From Sutterellaceae bacterium (GTDB lineage: Bacteria; Pseudomonadota; Gammaproteobacteria; Burkholderiales; Burkholderiaceae_F), in contig JAUNOJ010000017.1 in assembly GCA_030531135.1 (NCBI GenBank), forward strand, positions 1 to 14,835: DNA of 14,835 nt. Reading direction: 5' to 3'. Shown here in pieces: positions 1 to 5,614 of the stretch. Numbering within the stretch: position 1 is the first letter of the stretch; each line of letters starts with the position of its first letter. Position numbers and translations under genes: made by a program. The notes beneath the pieces were generated by a model. That model ran no database searches and was not told the origin of the DNA. It saw nothing but the letters and a program-made list of their open reading frames with translations.

Positions 1-567
1 TACATCCATTTCTTCCAACGTTTTGGTCTTTTTATCGGTCTGAGACTGTGCGCGTGCCTTTTTTGCGTATTCGATACGTTCCTGCACCGTCATTTCCAAT
101 CCCTGACGCTGAAACTCGGGGTCTCGCACCTGAGCGCGGAATGCTTGGTATTCGGTATCGAGCAGACACCATTCGTCGCCGTGGGATAAAAGAATTCGGT
201 CTTTGGGCGTTTCAATCACGACTTGGGGCTTTAAAAGCGTAGCGCCGCAATGGCGGGCAAAGTCTTCGCCCAACAGAAAGTCGCGATTGCCCTGCATCAT
301 ATAGATGCGATGACCTTTGGACGCATAGCGGCGCAACTCCTTGGCCACGGGTTCGGCAGGCTTGGCGCCGTCGTCTCCGATCCAATACTCGAAGAAGTCT
401 CCGAGAATAAAAAGTTCCTTGTAGTCGCGCGCCTTGGTTCTTAAAAACCAAAAGAAGCACAACAACGTTTTCATCTTCTTGCCGGTCAAATGCAAGTCGG
501 CAATGAAAATCGGTTTTTCAACGGCGGCAATTGTTGCGGTGCCGCTTAAAGCAGGAACTTTCAACAT
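1..567 (-). CDS. lpxH: UDP-2,3-diacylglucosamine diphosphatase LpxH (5' part; runs off the left edge)
   Basis: LpxH hydrolyses UDP-2,3-diacylglucosamine to lipid X and UMP at the inner face of the cytoplasmic membrane, the fourth step of lipid A synthesis. The 189 codons visible show the metallophosphoesterase motifs in order: FIADLHL at residues 21-27 (the metal-binding D-x-H), GDFFEYWIGDD at 56-66, GNRD at 93-96 and HGDEWC at 129-134. The final G-H-x-H motif and the stop lie outside the window. ATG at 567 is the only reasonable start. It puts about 16 residues more before the first motif than in the E. coli enzyme, and I see no clear Shine-Dalgarno sequence. The gene diverges from the cytochrome b gene. 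In related Burkholderiales I recall it following ppiB directly, whereas here about 3.9 kb separates them. Identification is secure from motifs; the exact start is less so. Confidence 0.95.
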   Translation of the reverse strand, partial: MLKVPALSGTATIAAVEKPIFIADLHLTGKKMKTLLCFFWFLRTKARDYKELFILGDFFEYWIGDDGAKPAEPVAKELRRYASKGHRIYMMQGNRDFLLGEDFARHCGATLLKPQVVIETPKDRILLSHGDEWCLLDTEYQAFRAQVRDPEFQRQGLEMTVQERIEYAKKARAQSQTDKKTKTLEEMDV

Positions 568-602
568 GGGTAAAGATTGACCAAGAACTCGGTTAAGCGG
601 CT

Positions 603-630
603 ATTGTGGCAGATTTGTAAGGTTTTGCAA
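603..630 (-). promoter_or_regulatory. Candidate sigma-70 promoter for lpxH
   Basis: Read on the minus strand, TTGCAA (630-625) and CACAAT (608-603) are separated by 16 bases, and each matches four of six consensus bases. Transcription would start near 596, giving a leader of about 30 bases to the lpxH ATG at 567. This is a visual match only. Confidence 0.35.
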
Positions 631-657
631 AGCAAAGGCAACACTTGGCAAAAAGAG

Positions 658-686
658 GGGACAACTCCCGCGAAACGCTCTAAGAT
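658..686 (+). promoter_or_regulatory. Weak candidate promoter for the cytochrome b gene
   Basis: GGGACA (658-663) and TAAGAT (681-686) are spaced by exactly 17 bases, each with four of six consensus matches. A start near 693 would place the hairpin at 714-743 inside a leader of about 108 bases. The rest of the 568-800 gap holds no convincing gene. Confidence 0.25.
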
Positions 687-713
687 ACACGTCAACACAG
701 GTCGTGGCGCGAC

Positions 714-743
714 GCAAAACATGCCCTCAAGGGGCGGTTTTGC
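714..743 (+). promoter_or_regulatory. Stem-loop in the leader of the cytochrome b gene
   Basis: GCAAAAC (714-720) pairs with GTTTTGC (737-743), and GCCC (723-726) pairs with GGGC (732-735) around the loop TCAAG. There is a small internal bulge (AT opposite G). No T-run follows beyond the stem, so it is not a classic terminator. It could be an attenuator, an RNA-stabilising element or a protein-binding dyad. Confidence 0.45.
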
Positions 744-800
744 ATTGCACACACTTTCTCTTGAGTCGATGTTTTCTTAACTATCCTCGGGAGAGATTCC

Positions 801-1517
801 ATGACCCACACCGCATCGCAAGTTCTGCGCTTTCACCTTTCAGATCGAATTTTCCATGCTTTACATGCGCTCTTTTGGTTTGCCTTGATGGCAAGCGCAA
901 TGTATGCGGGCGGCCTGCGGCATGCGGGCAACGAAGTCGCTTATGAAACAGCGATCGGCATTCATTTGGCATTGGGCGCGGGCTATGTCGCCGCTTTTGC
1001 CATTTACGTTGCCGTGGCACCCGACAGAATGGCGCGATTCTTCAAAGAGCTTTTTCGAAGCGATCGCAATTGCTTTGCGTGGTTTCGAAACTTCGGCAAC
1101 TACCCGAAGCGCTTTCTGGGCATCCAGATCGGACCGAAAGAAGTCGCAGCTCAAGGGCGCTATAACGGAGGGCAGCGCGTGACGTACACTTTATTTGCCG
1201 TGGCGGCCTTTGCGCTCATCGTCTCAGGCATTGCGTTGATGGGGCTGCGAGAAACGAACGAAGTGATCTACCAAGTCGTTGCGCAAATGCACGGCGGCAT
1301 TGCTCTTTTGACGACACTGGTGGTCGTGATCGGCCATATTCCGATGGCGCTCGTGAGCCCCGCCATGCGCAAAGCCATTGCACCTTGGGGCAACGGTCAA
1401 TTGTCGCTGGCAGTTGCCAAAGAACATTCGCCGCTTTGGGTCGCTAACGACTTGACGGAGAGCCCGATCAACGCATCGTTATTGGAAGAAAAGAGACTGG
1501 TAGCGCCGCGTCGTTAA
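801..1517 (+). CDS. Cytochrome b of the formate dehydrogenase gamma / b561 membrane family
   Basis: A 238-residue membrane protein with four hydrophobic segments near residues 20-36, 48-73, 127-148 and 164-186. Histidines suitable as ligands of two haems b sit in or beside them: H19/H22, H55, H164 and H179. This spacing, and the loop around residues 96-126 (RNFGNYP, then GRYNGGQR), resembles the gamma subunit of periplasmic formate dehydrogenases and related hydrogenase cytochromes b. Those proteins anchor the enzyme and pass electrons to quinone. GGGAGAG five bases before the ATG is a good ribosome-binding site. The catalytic molybdopterin and iron-sulfur subunits that usually accompany it are absent from the window, so its electron donor is unknown; it may serve an enzyme encoded elsewhere. 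The family call is good; the exact partner is not determined. Confidence 0.8.
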   Translation: MTHTASQVLRFHLSDRIFHALHALFWFALMASAMYAGGLRHAGNEVAYETAIGIHLALGAGYVAAFAIYVAVAPDRMARFFKELFRSDRNCFAWFRNFGNYPKRFLGIQIGPKEVAAQGRYNGGQRVTYTLFAVAAFALIVSGIALMGLRETNEVIYQVVAQMHGGIALLTTLVVVIGHIPMALVSPAMRKAIAPWGNGQLSLAVAKEHSPLWVANDLTESPINASLLEEKRLVAPRR

Positions 1518-1530
1518 CAAGAGGACGGCT

Positions 1531-1571
1531 CGAAAGAAAACGCGCTTGTCGAAACGGTATCGGCAAGCGCG
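1531..1571 (-). terminator. Rho-independent terminator of the dipeptidase gene
   Basis: CGCGCTTGTCG (1541-1551) pairs with CGGCAAGCGCG (1561-1571): 11 base pairs with one G-U wobble and a nine-base loop. On the minus strand the stem is followed by TTTTCTTTCG, a U-rich tail. On the plus strand there is no such tail, so it serves mainly the leftward dipeptidase transcript. It lies between two converging genes. Confidence 0.75.
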
Positions 1572-1598
1572 CTGATCTAGCAAGTTAAAAGACGCTCA

Positions 1599-3452
1599 TT
1601 ACTGGTCGTGGTTTTCCTTACCGGACTTCTTCGGAGGCGTATAACCTTCGGGAGCAACCAAAGCGGTGTCAAACGCCGTGATGCGATCTTTGCCCAGATA
1701 CGTGTAGAGCCACATATCGTAGACGGCGCCCGGGAGCATGAATTTCGTCAAGTCCTTGGCCTTGAACTGAAGCACCAAGTCGGCCTTGCCGTCCTTGTTG
1801 AAGTCGACCGTCTTCGTGGACACAGGTTGCGCCAACTGGCTCATCGTCACGGTCGTCGTGACGGAAGCGCGGCCGGCACCGGCGTAAGTGCGCTTCAAGT
1901 CAACCTTGGTCGCATCGAGCTTGGCGTCCGACAGAAGCACCACGTCGACCTTGTCTTCGCTCTTGGGATTGACGACGTCGGCCAAAACCACAATCTTGTG
2001 CGGCATCAATTCGTTAACGCGCGTCTGAGCAAAGCCCGTAGCAGCTTCAAAGCTTTCCACGTTAAAGGCATGCAGATAGGCGGCGGCCTTTTCGTTGGAA
2101 ACCTTGGTCAATTCCTTGGCCATGGCAACTACTTCGGCAGCCTTCTTTTCCCAGGTCTTTTCGAAACCGGCCAAGAGCTTGGTGTTGTTCTTCAGCTCTT
2201 CACGTTTGAATTCCAAGGCGTTGGCCATTTCGACAGACGTGAAAACAGGCCAGTCGGGGCTAAAGCTAAAGAGCGGAGCCGTACCCTTGAAGTGCTCTGC
2301 CGTGGCTTGGGCAGCATTCAGGAAGCCTGCATTTTCAGCCTGCTTGGCCAACGGGAAGAAGGGCACGTAAGGCGTTTCGCAGGGGCGAGCCAAGGAGCGG
2401 AAACCTTCGATCAACATCGGGTTGTCGTTCATGACCCAGACGCCGGACTCGTGCGTCGTGGGACGGCAAAGGCCGATGCCCTTAAAGTGATACCAGCCCG
2501 GATCGGCACCGATCGTCTTTTCGTGGGTGCGTAGCAAGTCCTTGACTTCTTCGACACCGAACTTCTTCGGGTTAACGGCGCTATACGGGAACTTTTCCGG
2601 ATCCGTAATGTTTTGGCCGAGAATCTTCTGCCAAGCCAGGTTGTTGCGAGACTGATTGTATTCTGCGGCGCGACGTTCTGCCGGTGCCACAGCCACACGG
2701 TAATTAAAGTCCTTGTAGACCCCCGGCGTTGCGGGCTTGTAGCGACCGTTCTTGATGGCGCGTTCAATCATACCCGGAGCCAAAATCACGTTTTCCGTGT
2801 CGGTGGCGTCGAGCTTATCCATCATGAAGTTGTTGGGGATGTAAACGATTTCGTTATCCTTGACGCGACGAGCAGCCCACGTATTGCCTTGGTGGATAGC
2901 GATCTGCCAAGCTTCTTTGCTGTCGGCAACCGTGTAGGTGCGGCCTTCGGAGAAGTAGCCGTATTTGCCGAGAAGATCGATGGCGATATCAATGGCGTGT
3001 TTGGCGCTCGTAGCGCGCTCGGCCATCAAACGACGAATGCCGTAGCCGATGCCGCCGTCTTTGGTCGGCATGATGTCGTCTTCATAAATACCCGTGCAGG
3101 CATTGGAGACAATCACGACGCCGTTTTCATTCACAAAGCCGTCGGAGAAGCTCGCGCCGTTGGGATCAAAGGTCTGCGACCAGTAGAAACCGAACGTCTT
3201 TTCAACCTGAGGAATTTTGGCTGCCGTCGGTTCATAGGTAATCATTTCGCCCTTGGCGTGCGTTGCTGCCGGCACCCAATACTGGGCAGAGAGAATGCGA
3301 CCGCCGTTGTCTTCGTTGTGGCCGACGATGATGGAACCCGTCTTGCTGACATCTTTGCCGACAATCACGGTCGAGCAGCCCATGGCGTTCATGGTCATGG
3401 ATGCAACAGCCAAACCGATGGCAACGGAAAGTGCCTTAATTTTAAGAGACAT
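1599..3452 (-). CDS. Exported C69-family dipeptidase (N-terminal nucleophile hydrolase)
   Basis: A 617-residue protein. Residues 1-25 look like a Sec signal peptide (MSLKIKAL, hydrophobic core, then NAMG). The next residue, Cys26, begins CSTVIVGKD, with GHNEDNGGR at about 44-52. This is the N-terminal pattern of peptidase family C69 (PepD), in which a cysteine exposed at the mature N-terminus is the nucleophile. Such enzymes cleave dipeptides with broad specificity. The protein is longer than the roughly 470 residues of classic PepD, and the extra C-terminal part holds DFNKDGKAD (550-558), a calcium-loop-like pattern. AAGGAAG about eight bases before the ATG is a strong ribosome-binding site, and a terminator follows the stop. 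The lipobox is not canonical (A-M-G-C), so a secreted or periplasmic enzyme is likelier than a lipoprotein. Probable role: peptide scavenging outside the cytoplasm. Confidence 0.87.
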   Translation of the reverse strand: MSLKIKALSVAIGLAVASMTMNAMGCSTVIVGKDVSKTGSIIVGHNEDNGGRILSAQYWVPAATHAKGEMITYEPTAAKIPQVEKTFGFYWSQTFDPNGASFSDGFVNENGVVIVSNACTGIYEDDIMPTKDGGIGYGIRRLMAERATSAKHAIDIAIDLLGKYGYFSEGRTYTVADSKEAWQIAIHQGNTWAARRVKDNEIVYIPNNFMMDKLDATDTENVILAPGMIERAIKNGRYKPATPGVYKDFNYRVAVAPAERRAAEYNQSRNNLAWQKILGQNITDPEKFPYSAVNPKKFGVEEVKDLLRTHEKTIGADPGWYHFKGIGLCRPTTHESGVWVMNDNPMLIEGFRSLARPCETPYVPFFPLAKQAENAGFLNAAQATAEHFKGTAPLFSFSPDWPVFTSVEMANALEFKREELKNNTKLLAGFEKTWEKKAAEVVAMAKELTKVSNEKAAAYLHAFNVESFEAATGFAQTRVNELMPHKIVVLADVVNPKSEDKVDVVLLSDAKLDATKVDLKRTYAGAGRASVTTTVTMSQLAQPVSTKTVDFNKDGKADLVLQFKAKDLTKFMLPGAVYDMWLYTYLGKDRITAFDTALVAPEGYTPPKKSGKENHDQ

Positions 3453-3552
3453 AGGTTTTATCTTCCTTTAGTGGTGTAAACGGTGTTTATGCAAAACGCC
3501 GAGGAAAGACGACATCGAAGTTTGTATTGAACAACCAACAAAATAGGGTGTC

Positions 3553-3599
3553 GCAATACCATTTTATGCCTTGTATTAAGGTATTTGCCCTAGGGTAAA
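3553..3599. promoter_or_regulatory. Paired dyad symmetries in the dipeptidase/kinase divergent spacer (possible operator)
   Basis: A 16-base near-palindrome, TTTGCCCTAGGGTAAA (3584-3599), has perfect TTT..CCCTAGGG..AAA symmetry with one mismatched pair. Overlapping it, GCAATACC (3553-3560) and GGTATTTGC (3580-3588) form an imperfect inverted repeat. The spacer (3453-3712) separates two divergent genes, where an operator would be expected. I found no confident -35/-10 pair in it. No regulator gene lies nearby, so the binding protein is unknown. Confidence 0.35.
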
Positions 3600-3712
3600 C
3601 CATTTAGCTTTGTCACCAAAGAATCGGAGGTGTTGTTGAAATAAAACGAGTTAGGCAAGAGGACGAATGTCGTTATCATCCAAAGATGAAATGAGCAAAA
3701 GGAGATATAGAA

Positions 3713-4246
3713 ATGATTATTTTGATTACCGGAGCATCGCATACAGGGAAAACTTTGTTGGCACAACAGCTTCTCGAGCGCTTGCACTATCCGACGCTAT
3801 CCATCGATTTGCTCAAAATGGGTCTGATTCGCAGCCGCCAAACAACATTGACGCCCGAAGACGACGAGGCGCTCGAAGATTATCTCTGGCCGATCGTGCG
3901 CGAGACGATCCGCACCGCCATCGAAAACGGACAGCATCTGATCGTGGAGGGTGGCTATATTCCCATTGATTGGCAGGCGTCGTTTGCCGAAAGCGAAATC
4001 GAGCACATCCGTTTTGCCTGTTTGGTGATGGACGAGGACTATATTAGAGAGCACTTTGACGACATCCGTGAACATGCCGACGCGATCGAAAAGCGTCTCG
4101 ACGACTCGGGGCTAACCGTGGAAAGCGTGCTCGAAGACAATGCGCACTACCTTGCGTTGTGCCGAAAGTTTGGGGTCGAGCCTTTGCTGATTGAAGGCGA
4201 TTATTCTCCTCAGGCGTTGGTCGAGCGAATTTGTACAACGGTGTAA
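3713..4246 (+). CDS. Small P-loop NTPase, predicted nucleotide or small-molecule kinase
   Basis: A 177-residue protein beginning MIILITGASHTGKT, with Walker A GASHTGKT at residues 7-14. A conserved-looking acidic SIDLLKMGLI stretch follows near 30-40, then LIVEGGYIP near 77-85. The order (P-loop, strand with Asp, strand ending in VEGG) fits small phosphotransferases of the adenylate kinase/zeta-toxin type P-loop fold; the substrate is unknown. I recall very similar short proteins in gut Clostridia and other Firmicutes, but this is memory and was not searched. AAAAGGAGAT six bases before ATG 3713 is the strongest ribosome-binding site in the window. The gene stands alone and divergent from the dipeptidase. 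It has no rightward terminator of its own, and its 3' end abuts the terminator of the converging small RNA candidate. Confidence 0.75.
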   Translation: MIILITGASHTGKTLLAQQLLERLHYPTLSIDLLKMGLIRSRQTTLTPEDDEALEDYLWPIVRETIRTAIENGQHLIVEGGYIPIDWQASFAESEIEHIRFACLVMDEDYIREHFDDIREHADAIEKRLDDSGLTVESVLEDNAHYLALCRKFGVEPLLIEGDYSPQALVERICTTV

Positions 4247-4283
4247 AAAAGGAAACCTCAGGAAAGATTACTCCCCGAGGTCC
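4245..4283 (-). terminator. Rho-independent terminator of the small RNA candidate
   Basis: On the minus strand ACCTCGGG (4281-4274) pairs with CCTGAGGT (4262-4255): eight pairs with one G-U. Two further G-U pairs are possible outside, before CC and a run of six Ts (4250-4245). The plus-strand side lacks a T-run, so it acts leftward only. It cannot serve the rightward kinase gene that ends at 4246. Confidence 0.65.
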
Positions 4284-4337
4284 TGAACCGGTACCTATAG
4301 GGACTCAATAAAAGTTGAGACACCCCCTATAGTGCAC
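4245..4337 (-). ncRNA. Candidate independent small RNA, about 93 nt
   Basis: A complete minus-strand transcription unit. A near-consensus promoter (4373-4345) is followed by a predicted start near G4337. A stem-loop comes next (4332-4295: eight outer pairs CTATAGGG/CCCTATAG, five inner pairs CTCAA/TTGAG, loop CTTTTA on the minus strand). A short linker containing ACCGGTT leads to a terminator hairpin (4281-4255) that ends in T6 at 4250-4245. There is no ATG with a ribosome-binding site inside, so it is probably non-coding. It matches no housekeeping RNA I know: it is too short for 6S RNA and lacks the signal recognition particle RNA core. Its 3' end touches the stop codon of the converging kinase gene, and another leftward terminator (4440-4405) insulates it from ppiB upstream. 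A base-pairing regulator is plausible; its target is unknown. Confidence 0.6.
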
Positions 4338-4344
4338 GACGCTC

Positions 4345-4373
4345 ATTGTATCGAACGCAGGAAAACCAGTCAA
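4345..4373 (-). promoter_or_regulatory. Near-consensus sigma-70 promoter of the small RNA candidate
   Basis: On the minus strand TTGACT (4373-4368) and TACAAT (4350-4345) are separated by exactly 17 bases, and each matches five of six consensus positions. This is the best promoter match I found in the window. No protein gene lies downstream on the minus strand before the terminator at 4283-4245. Confidence 0.7.
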
Positions 4374-4404
4374 AGTTTAACCCATACCACCTCAAACCAC
4401 GCTA

Positions 4405-4440
4405 GAAAGAAAAACCTCCGAAAACGCACGCTTTCGGAGG
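4405..4440 (-). terminator. Rho-independent terminator of the ppiA-ppiB transcript
   Basis: CCTCCGAAA (4415-4423) pairs perfectly with TTTCGGAGG (4432-4440), and the minus-strand stem is followed by TTTTTCTTTC. It lies 61 bases beyond the ppiB stop and separates that operon from the small RNA promoter. Confidence 0.85.
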
Positions 4441-4453
4441 CTCTTAACAGTGT

Positions 4454-4486
4454 CCCGAGTGTAGGGCTATTGCCGCAACACTCGGG
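4454..4486 (-). other. Stem-loop in the ppiB 3' untranslated region
   Basis: CCCGAGTGT (4454-4462) pairs perfectly with ACACTCGGG (4478-4486), and GGC/GCC can extend pairing inside the loop. No T-run follows on either strand, so it is not itself a terminator. It sits between the ppiB stop and the true terminator, where it could protect the mRNA 3' end or be a processing site. Confidence 0.55.
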
Positions 4487-4500
4487 TCCAAGGTCATCGA

Positions 4501-5001
4501 TTACACGATTTCGACCTTTTCCACCTTTTCAATCACGACATCTTCCACGGGCACGTCGCCGTAGTAGTTGCGCGTCGACGTTCTCACCTTGCTGATGGCG
4601 TCGACAACGTCGCGACCCACGGTCACGCGACCGAACACGGCGTAACCCCAACCCTGACCCATGGGGGCGGTGTGGTTCAAGAAGTCGTTGTCGGCAACGT
4701 TGATAAAGAACTGGCTGGTCGCGGAGTGCGGGTCGCTCGTGCGAGCCATGGCAATCGTGTACTTGTCGTTCTTCAAACCGTTGTCGGCTTCGTTTTCGAT
4801 CGGTTCATGCGTTTCCTTCTGGATGAGGCCGGGCTCAAAGCCGCCGCCCTGGATCATGAAGCCGGCAATCACACGATGGAAAATCGTACCGTCGTAGAAG
4901 CCTTCGCGCACATAGCGCATGAAGTTTTCGCAAGTCTTCGGAGCTGCGGCTTCGTCGAGCTCAACGTCGAAGATTCCCATCGAAGTGGTAAATCGGATCA
5001 T
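4501..5001 (-). CDS. ppiB: Cytoplasmic cyclophilin, peptidyl-prolyl cis-trans isomerase B
   Basis: This enzyme speeds cis-trans isomerisation of proline peptide bonds during protein folding. At 166 residues it is the usual size for bacterial PpiB. Cyclophilin motifs are clear: [15 protein letters not shown] near residues 41-55 (catalytic Arg in FHRVI), [18 protein letters not shown] near 85-102 and [10 protein letters not shown] near 117-126. There is no signal peptide, so it acts in the cytoplasm. AAGGAA lies about ten bases before the ATG. It is the last gene of a minus-strand cluster, 34 bases behind the exported cyclophilin, and is followed by a stem-loop and a strong terminator. A second, similar cyclophilin immediately upstream suggests an old duplication with division of labour between compartments. 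Confidence 0.95.
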
Positions 5002-5035
5002 AAAAATTCAATTCCTTTTAGAAGTGAAACCAAAG

Positions 5036-5614
5036 TTAGTCTTTGATTTTAACGGAGCGAATTGTAACCGTTTTTACGGGAACGTCACGCATGCCCATCT
5101 TGACGCCGGTGGGCGTCGACGAAATCTTGTCGATCACGTCCATGCCCTTTACGACGCGTGCAAAGACCGTGTAACCCCAGCCGTCGCGGGCGTTTTTGGC
5201 ATCCAAAAAGTCGTTATCCACCGTATTGATAAAAAATTGTGCGGTGGCAGAGTGCGGATCGCTCGTACGTGCCATAGCAACCGTCCCTCGGGTATTGGCC
5301 AAGCCGCCGCGTGCTTCGTTCACGATAGGCGCATTGGTACGCTTTTGTTTCATGTCTGCGGTAAAGCCGCCGCCTTGAACCATAAAGCCGTCAATGACGC
5401 GATGGAAAATCGTGCCGTCATAGAAACCGGCCTTGGCATATTCGATGAAGTTTTTCACCGTAATGGGGGCGCGATCGGCCTCAAAGCGAATCGTGATTTC
5501 ACCCATGGAGGTGTCCAAAACGGCTTCGTTTTCGGCTGCTGCCACCGAGCCCGCAAAAAGCGGCGCCACGGCCAAAGTCAAAAGGCCCAAACGGGCACGC
5601 ATCGAGAGGTTCAT
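5036..5614 (-). CDS. ppiA: Exported (periplasmic) cyclophilin, peptidyl-prolyl cis-trans isomerase A
   Basis: The reading frame extends further upstream, but ATG 5614 (MNLSMRARLG) begins a normal Sec signal peptide: basic start, hydrophobic core LLTLAVAPLFAG, then a likely cut in SVAAA before ENEAV. The cyclophilin domain follows, with [33 protein letters not shown] and GWGYTVFARVVKG. The protein is 193 residues. It should help fold proteins in the periplasm, including the outer-membrane and secreted proteins encoded nearby, though no specific client is shown. The ribosome-binding site is weak (AGAGTAAAAG). It lies 68 bases after the TPR gene and 34 before ppiB and is probably cotranscribed with both. 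An AT-rich spacer with repeated CAAAC precedes it. Confidence 0.92.
   Translation of the reverse strand: MNLSMRARLGLLTLAVAPLFAGSVAAAENEAVLDTSMGEITIRFEADRAPITVKNFIEYAKAGFYDGTIFHRVIDGFMVQGGGFTADMKQKRTNAPIVNEARGGLANTRGTVAMARTSDPHSATAQFFINTVDNDFLDAKNARDGWGYTVFARVVKGMDVIDKISSTPTGVKMGMRDVPVKTVTIRSVKIKD

Follow-up and report, generated by a model that had tools for sequence, protein, structure and literature searches.

Does the 254-nt intergenic gap (4247-4500) between a cyclophilin gene and a convergent kinase-like gene hold a small RNA gene of its own? The gap lies within a window of 14,835 bases, which is the whole stretch of DNA that was analysed, and the original prediction was that its minus strand carries a self-contained small RNA gene with a near-consensus promoter. 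The features on which an answer depends, in order of position, are the following.

1..567, minus strand: 5' part of lpxH, which is truncated at the contig end
3713..4246, plus strand: AAA_33 P-loop kinase-like gene, convergent to the candidate
4250-4245, minus strand: terminator T run of six Ts, the predicted RNA 3' end, with CC between the stem and the Ts
4283-4253, minus strand: terminator stem-loop of 13 pairs, 5 of them G-C
4290-4284, minus strand: short linker between the hairpins, mostly single-stranded in the MFE structure
4337-4291, minus strand: two-tier 5' hairpin (MFE structure)
near 4337, minus strand: predicted transcription start, with a G+C-rich discriminator (by eye)
4373-4345, minus strand: sigma-70-type promoter TTGACT-17-TACAAT, a 10/12 match
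4405..4445, minus strand: terminator behind the cyclophilin gene (script and fold), insulating the candidate from it
4501..5001, minus strand: cyclophilin gene (called ppiB), upstream of the candidate on the same strand

The promoter-like site, the hairpins, the terminator and the insulation from ppiB are read directly from the DNA, as is the insertion described below. Along the minus strand, the gap runs from the ppiB 3' end through a hairpin, a terminator, the promoter, the two-tier hairpin and the linker to the six-T terminator. The promoter originally proposed for this strand is present, and the 38-base two-tier hairpin first outlined at 4332-4295 proves to be the core of a slightly longer one: the MFE structure has four outer pairs, a 9-pair lower stem, a 5-pair upper stem and a 6-nt loop, with a bulge of 4 nt on the 5' side. 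The predicted terminator hairpin is likewise found together with its six Ts, and the T run overlaps the stop codon (4244-4246) of the convergent kinase-like gene. A leftward terminator had also been said to separate the candidate from ppiB. This terminator was omitted by a scan of 3500-5500, and a separate script and fold reveal a strong one at about 4445-4405. With this terminator upstream and the kinase-like gene on the opposite strand downstream, no protein gene is left for the promoter to drive, as had been claimed. On the plus strand of 4247-4500, no intrinsic terminator was found for the kinase-like gene.

The predicted RNA contains no ATG, the frames that stop inside it are at most 21 codons long, and no properly spaced Shine-Dalgarno sequence is seen by eye. 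The possible starts are a GTG at +1 (10 aa), a GTG at +15 (21 aa), where a purine run directly abuts the start, a TTG at +30 (16 aa) and a CTG at +77, whose frame has no stop inside the RNA. Judged by eye, none of these start codons is credible, and the frame listing bears out the earlier statement to that effect. Rfam gave no match at gathering level anywhere in the window and nothing relevant over 4200-4450 at E values up to 10, in agreement with the claim that the RNA fits no known housekeeping family. For 6S RNA (RF00013, a 187-position model), no match was found over the candidate or elsewhere in the source assembly.

Shuffled sequences provide a measure of how far these elements exceed chance. 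The 95 nt from 4337 to 4243 fold at -37.3 kcal/mol (z -3.77); shuffled versions average -24.6 kcal/mol, and none of 200 folded as well as the native sequence. Taken by themselves, the 3' 58 nt do not stand out (z -1.10, with 27 of 200 shuffles folding as well), and the fold signal is therefore attributed mainly to the 5' hairpin. The promoter at 4373-4345 is the sole site matching at 10/12 or better on both strands of the window, and a site of this quality appears on the gap strand in 30 of 4000 dinucleotide shuffles (0.75%). Since shuffled whole windows average 0.73 such sites, the promoter by itself is not remarkable. A scan of 3500-5500 returned three promoter-like sites (at least 9/12), compared with 1.3 in shuffles, and three terminator-like sites, compared with 2.8 in shuffles; terminator-like sites are therefore not above chance in this region. 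A joint unit was defined as a promoter of at least 10/12 followed, 50-200 nt downstream, by a terminator of -12 kcal/mol or lower with at least six T in eight. In shuffle tests that score the promoter and terminator together, leaving the intergenic position and the 5' hairpin uncounted and making no correction for the window having been read for oddities, the window holds this unit once and 6 of 300 shuffled windows contain one; with the limit loosened to -9 kcal/mol, none of 600 shuffled versions of the gap has one. A chance origin is therefore unlikely, though possible.

With its promoter, insulation and terminator in place and no credible open reading frame, the locus retains the architecture of a self-contained small RNA gene; the originally proposed check that it did not pass is conservation in related genomes. 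Searches of those genomes did not find the promoter, hairpin pairing and terminator to be conserved. At the DNA level, a search with 4445-4230 as the query gave matches in 21 of 60 relatives at E values up to 1, all of 16-33 bases only (best E 0.02), and no homolog among the 60. A single-sequence covariance model of the candidate (R1) recovered, from 67 family genomes, the candidate itself and one match overlapping a tRNA, with no convincing homolog in the 66 others. Run against 399 genomes of the order (own genome included, and overlapping the family set), R1 found no convincing homolog in the 398 others; beyond 40 genomes the search filters are stricter, and weak homologs could be lost. Under default filters, R1 had no match at E values up to 1 in 45 loci from other genomes (around relatives of ppiB, the kinase and the C69 gene). 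A distant blastn search of plasmids and phages gave no match to the candidate, and its degenerate hairpin pattern was not matched in viral contigs.

Besides the candidate itself, the matches of R1 in the order were three. Two were set aside: that in genome G008 is the tRNA overlap, and that in G118 falls in coding DNA, within a coding frame and antisense to it. The third, in G043, reaches 37.7 bits, with an E value of 2.1e-5 when one genome is considered and of about 0.008 across all 399, and its two-tier hairpin and terminator are alike in shape to those of the candidate, in a different genomic context. No promoter lies at the corresponding place, the one at 1722-1693 being some 85-90 nt too far upstream; a 12-codon frame precedes the hairpin, and R2, the model of the ppiB module, matches the stretch as well. 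This match is treated as what it probably is, a generic hairpin-terminator, with a small chance that it is a distant relative.

Two of these loci have features of their own. The G043 stretch (locus L173, 1500-1730, minus strand) combines a promoter-like site, the 12-codon frame with a Shine-Dalgarno-like sequence, the two-tier hairpin and a strong terminator. It folds with a z of -6.56, lies downstream of a gene that is HNH-type by eye, and could be a separate small RNA or a leader. Positions 1-1200 of locus L140, from G008, are repeat-rich and CRISPR-array-like (by eye, from repeated peptides in the ORFs) and adjoin the tRNA gene.

The gene order around the gap bears on how the absence from relatives should be read. 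All nine genus relatives have lpxH on the strand of ppiB, 33-256 nt past the end of the ppiB match. Here the start of lpxH is at 567, a distance of 3,934 nt from the ppiB stop. The block between the two genes (567-4501, about 3.9 kb) contains a cytochrome b561 gene, a C69 dipeptidase gene, the AAA_33 kinase-like gene and the candidate RNA. Judged from this gene order, the candidate belongs to a genome-specific insertion or lies at its edge. This placement partly accounts for the absence of the RNA in relatives; in a conserved gap, such an absence would count more heavily against a gene. The placement also leaves no argument from conservation.

Other genes of the block have their own distributions. 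In none of the nine genus relatives was a match to the P-loop kinase-like gene found; 8 of 67 family genomes gave one, a count that includes its own genome and a 24-residue fragment, and the highest identity to a family relative is 59%, in G062. Among the best 80 of at least 436 relatives, a set that may leave out near relatives of the source genome, most are from Clostridia, at 55-68% identity, and a few are from Actinobacteria, spirochaetes and others. With Clostridia dominating these relatives and the best family match at 59%, the kinase-like gene was likely acquired laterally, a reading based on identities and not on a tree. A relative of the C69 gene at 81% is present in G007, a genome with no kinase match, and no trace of the RNA was found beside that relative. 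Repeats within 540-5100 comprise three direct families and one inverted pair, all within genes, and none was found at the insertion edges. With a G+C content of 0.48-0.50, the kinase and gap stretch is somewhat below ppiB and most of the C69 gene (0.52-0.57); other parts of the window are lower as well, and no clear compositional island is therefore recognized. The candidate is present as a single copy in its assembly (search at E values up to 10; assembly 87.6% complete), which rules out a dispersed repeat or MITE. An orphaned lpxH promoter is unlikely as well, since lpxH has, just upstream, its own promoter-like TTGCAA-16-CACAAT (by eye), unlike that of the candidate.

The reading that we prefer, with a probability of about one half, is that minus-strand positions 4337-4245 are a stand-alone, lineage-restricted intergenic sRNA gene of about 93 nt, whose product probably base-pairs in trans. 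As far as sequence can tell, it is a plausible, unproven sRNA gene found in this one genome only, and it is best read as recently acquired or newly arisen. We infer transcription, Hfq binding, targets and regulation by base pairing in the following form. RNA polymerase carrying the housekeeping sigma factor would start near 4337 and stop at the six-U terminator, yielding a product of about 93 nt with a strong 5' hairpin, a short linker and the terminator hairpin. Imperfect pairing with mRNAs encoded elsewhere would proceed through the linker and the loops, with help from Hfq; the linker (4290-4284) may serve as the seed region. The gene would have arrived with the roughly 3.9-kb insertion between ppiB and lpxH, or arisen at its edge. 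Because the candidate is absent from the ppiB-lpxH gap of nine relatives, its origin is bracketed, and, if transcribed, it would represent a datable example of a lineage-specific RNA gene.

The partners that trans-acting regulation would draw on were also surveyed. Hfq is encoded in 9/9 genus relatives and in 65/67 family genomes. It was not found in the source assembly (87.6% complete), where it is probably a missing piece of the assembly. The candidate RNA has a predicted six-U tail at its terminator. A ProQ-family protein (PF04352) was found in 0/10 genus genomes. In a target check of 13 window regions, four of them off a start codon and all scored with no shuffled control, the lowest linker energy was -14.9, for tilS, a value from which no target is read.

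A possible, though not a probable, account is that the unit is fortuitous: a chance promoter would have come to lie beside hairpins at the insertion junction, giving at most a non-functional, unselected transcript. The lack of conservation in the relatives searched and the location at an insertion junction agree with this account, as does the appearance of such units in shuffled windows (6 of 300), the more so in a window that was read for oddities. However, the promoter, hairpin and terminator coincide in one intergenic gap, and the 5' hairpin begins at the predicted start.

It is unlikely that the RNA is made and has its effect in cis, on the kinase-like gene that converges on it and is probably a lateral acquisition. 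A full 93-nt duplex, or convergent transcription, would then set the 3' end, stability or level of the kinase mRNA. Since no intrinsic terminator was found for this mRNA on the plus strand of 4247-4500, it would be expected to extend across the complement of the RNA, although Rho termination is equally possible. The overlap of the T run with the kinase stop codon, and the presence of both RNA and kinase-like gene within the inserted block, would fit such a role. In contrast, a similar RNA was found at none of 80 kinase-relative loci (the best 80 of at least 436, some ended by contig edges; best score 13.0 bits), nor at the 7 loci of family kinase relatives. The result at the 80 loci also led to rejection of a kinase-RNA module in the style of a toxin-antitoxin pair. 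It is quite improbable that a young RNA gene, born in or imported with the insertion, controls the adjacent kinase via a full-length antisense duplex at the mRNA 3' end; were this antisense reading true, one RNA gene would act as both terminator and regulator for foreign DNA.

It is hardly credible that the candidate is a tandem duplicate of the hairpin-terminator module at the ppiB 3' end that diverged and picked up a promoter. In favour of this, R1 scores the ppiB module at 27.2 bits, when nothing in 806 kb of other loci exceeds 13.0 bits, and the local alignment of the two beats 1995 of 2000 shuffles. Against it, an alignment to the candidate no worse than that of the ppiB module is reached by 4 of 202 unrelated terminator modules (9 of 285 when similarity-fetched loci are kept), and in the reverse test the candidate reaches 15.8 bits, below matches in loci of four other genomes (L173, L145, L146 and L152), so that this idea, already weak, fails against real terminators.

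Read as a stand-alone sRNA gene, the candidate can be set beside RNAs from another member of the order. Table 1 of a report on Burkholderia cenocepacia covers 15 candidate sRNAs of 57-259 nt, with MFE values (mfold) of -22.6 to -102.0 and z values of -1.0 to -7.2 (PMC5688073), and the length, fold energy and z of the present candidate fall within the range of those 15. Three B. cenocepacia RNAs, ncS01, ncS25 and ncS35, are independently transcribed intergenic sRNAs of 85-166 nt (PMC5688073, PMC5760752). The candidate resembles them in having its own promoter, an intrinsic terminator, no ORF, a strong fold and no listed Rfam family. Unlike the candidate, which is known from its DNA and has no known relatives, these three are experimentally transcribed and conserved in Burkholderia groups. 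A search of an open-access library returned no paper that links Sutterella to small RNA and Hfq, or Sutterellaceae to sRNA; if transcribed, the candidate would be an sRNA in a family for which that search gave no sRNA paper.

Two classes of double-hairpin RNA were considered for comparison. The "toxic small RNAs" of RF02278 are double-hairpin RNAs described as occurring three to five per Burkholderia genome (PMC5688073). The candidate is similarly a short RNA made almost entirely of two hairpins, but it differs from that description in being single copy and in having no clear CU-rich unpaired stretch (by eye), and the RF02278 covariance model has no match over 4200-4450, even at E values up to 10. 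Plasmid counter-transcribed RNAs such as CopA are about 90 nt long and have two hairpins. The candidate shares this length and layout; unlike the CopA type, it has no replication gene seen on the opposite strand. The ctRNA_p42d model produced a chance-level score only, and this over the ppiB terminator, not the candidate. The ppiB 3' end itself (4402-4491, minus strand) also combines a hairpin with a terminator and folds very strongly (z -6.48).
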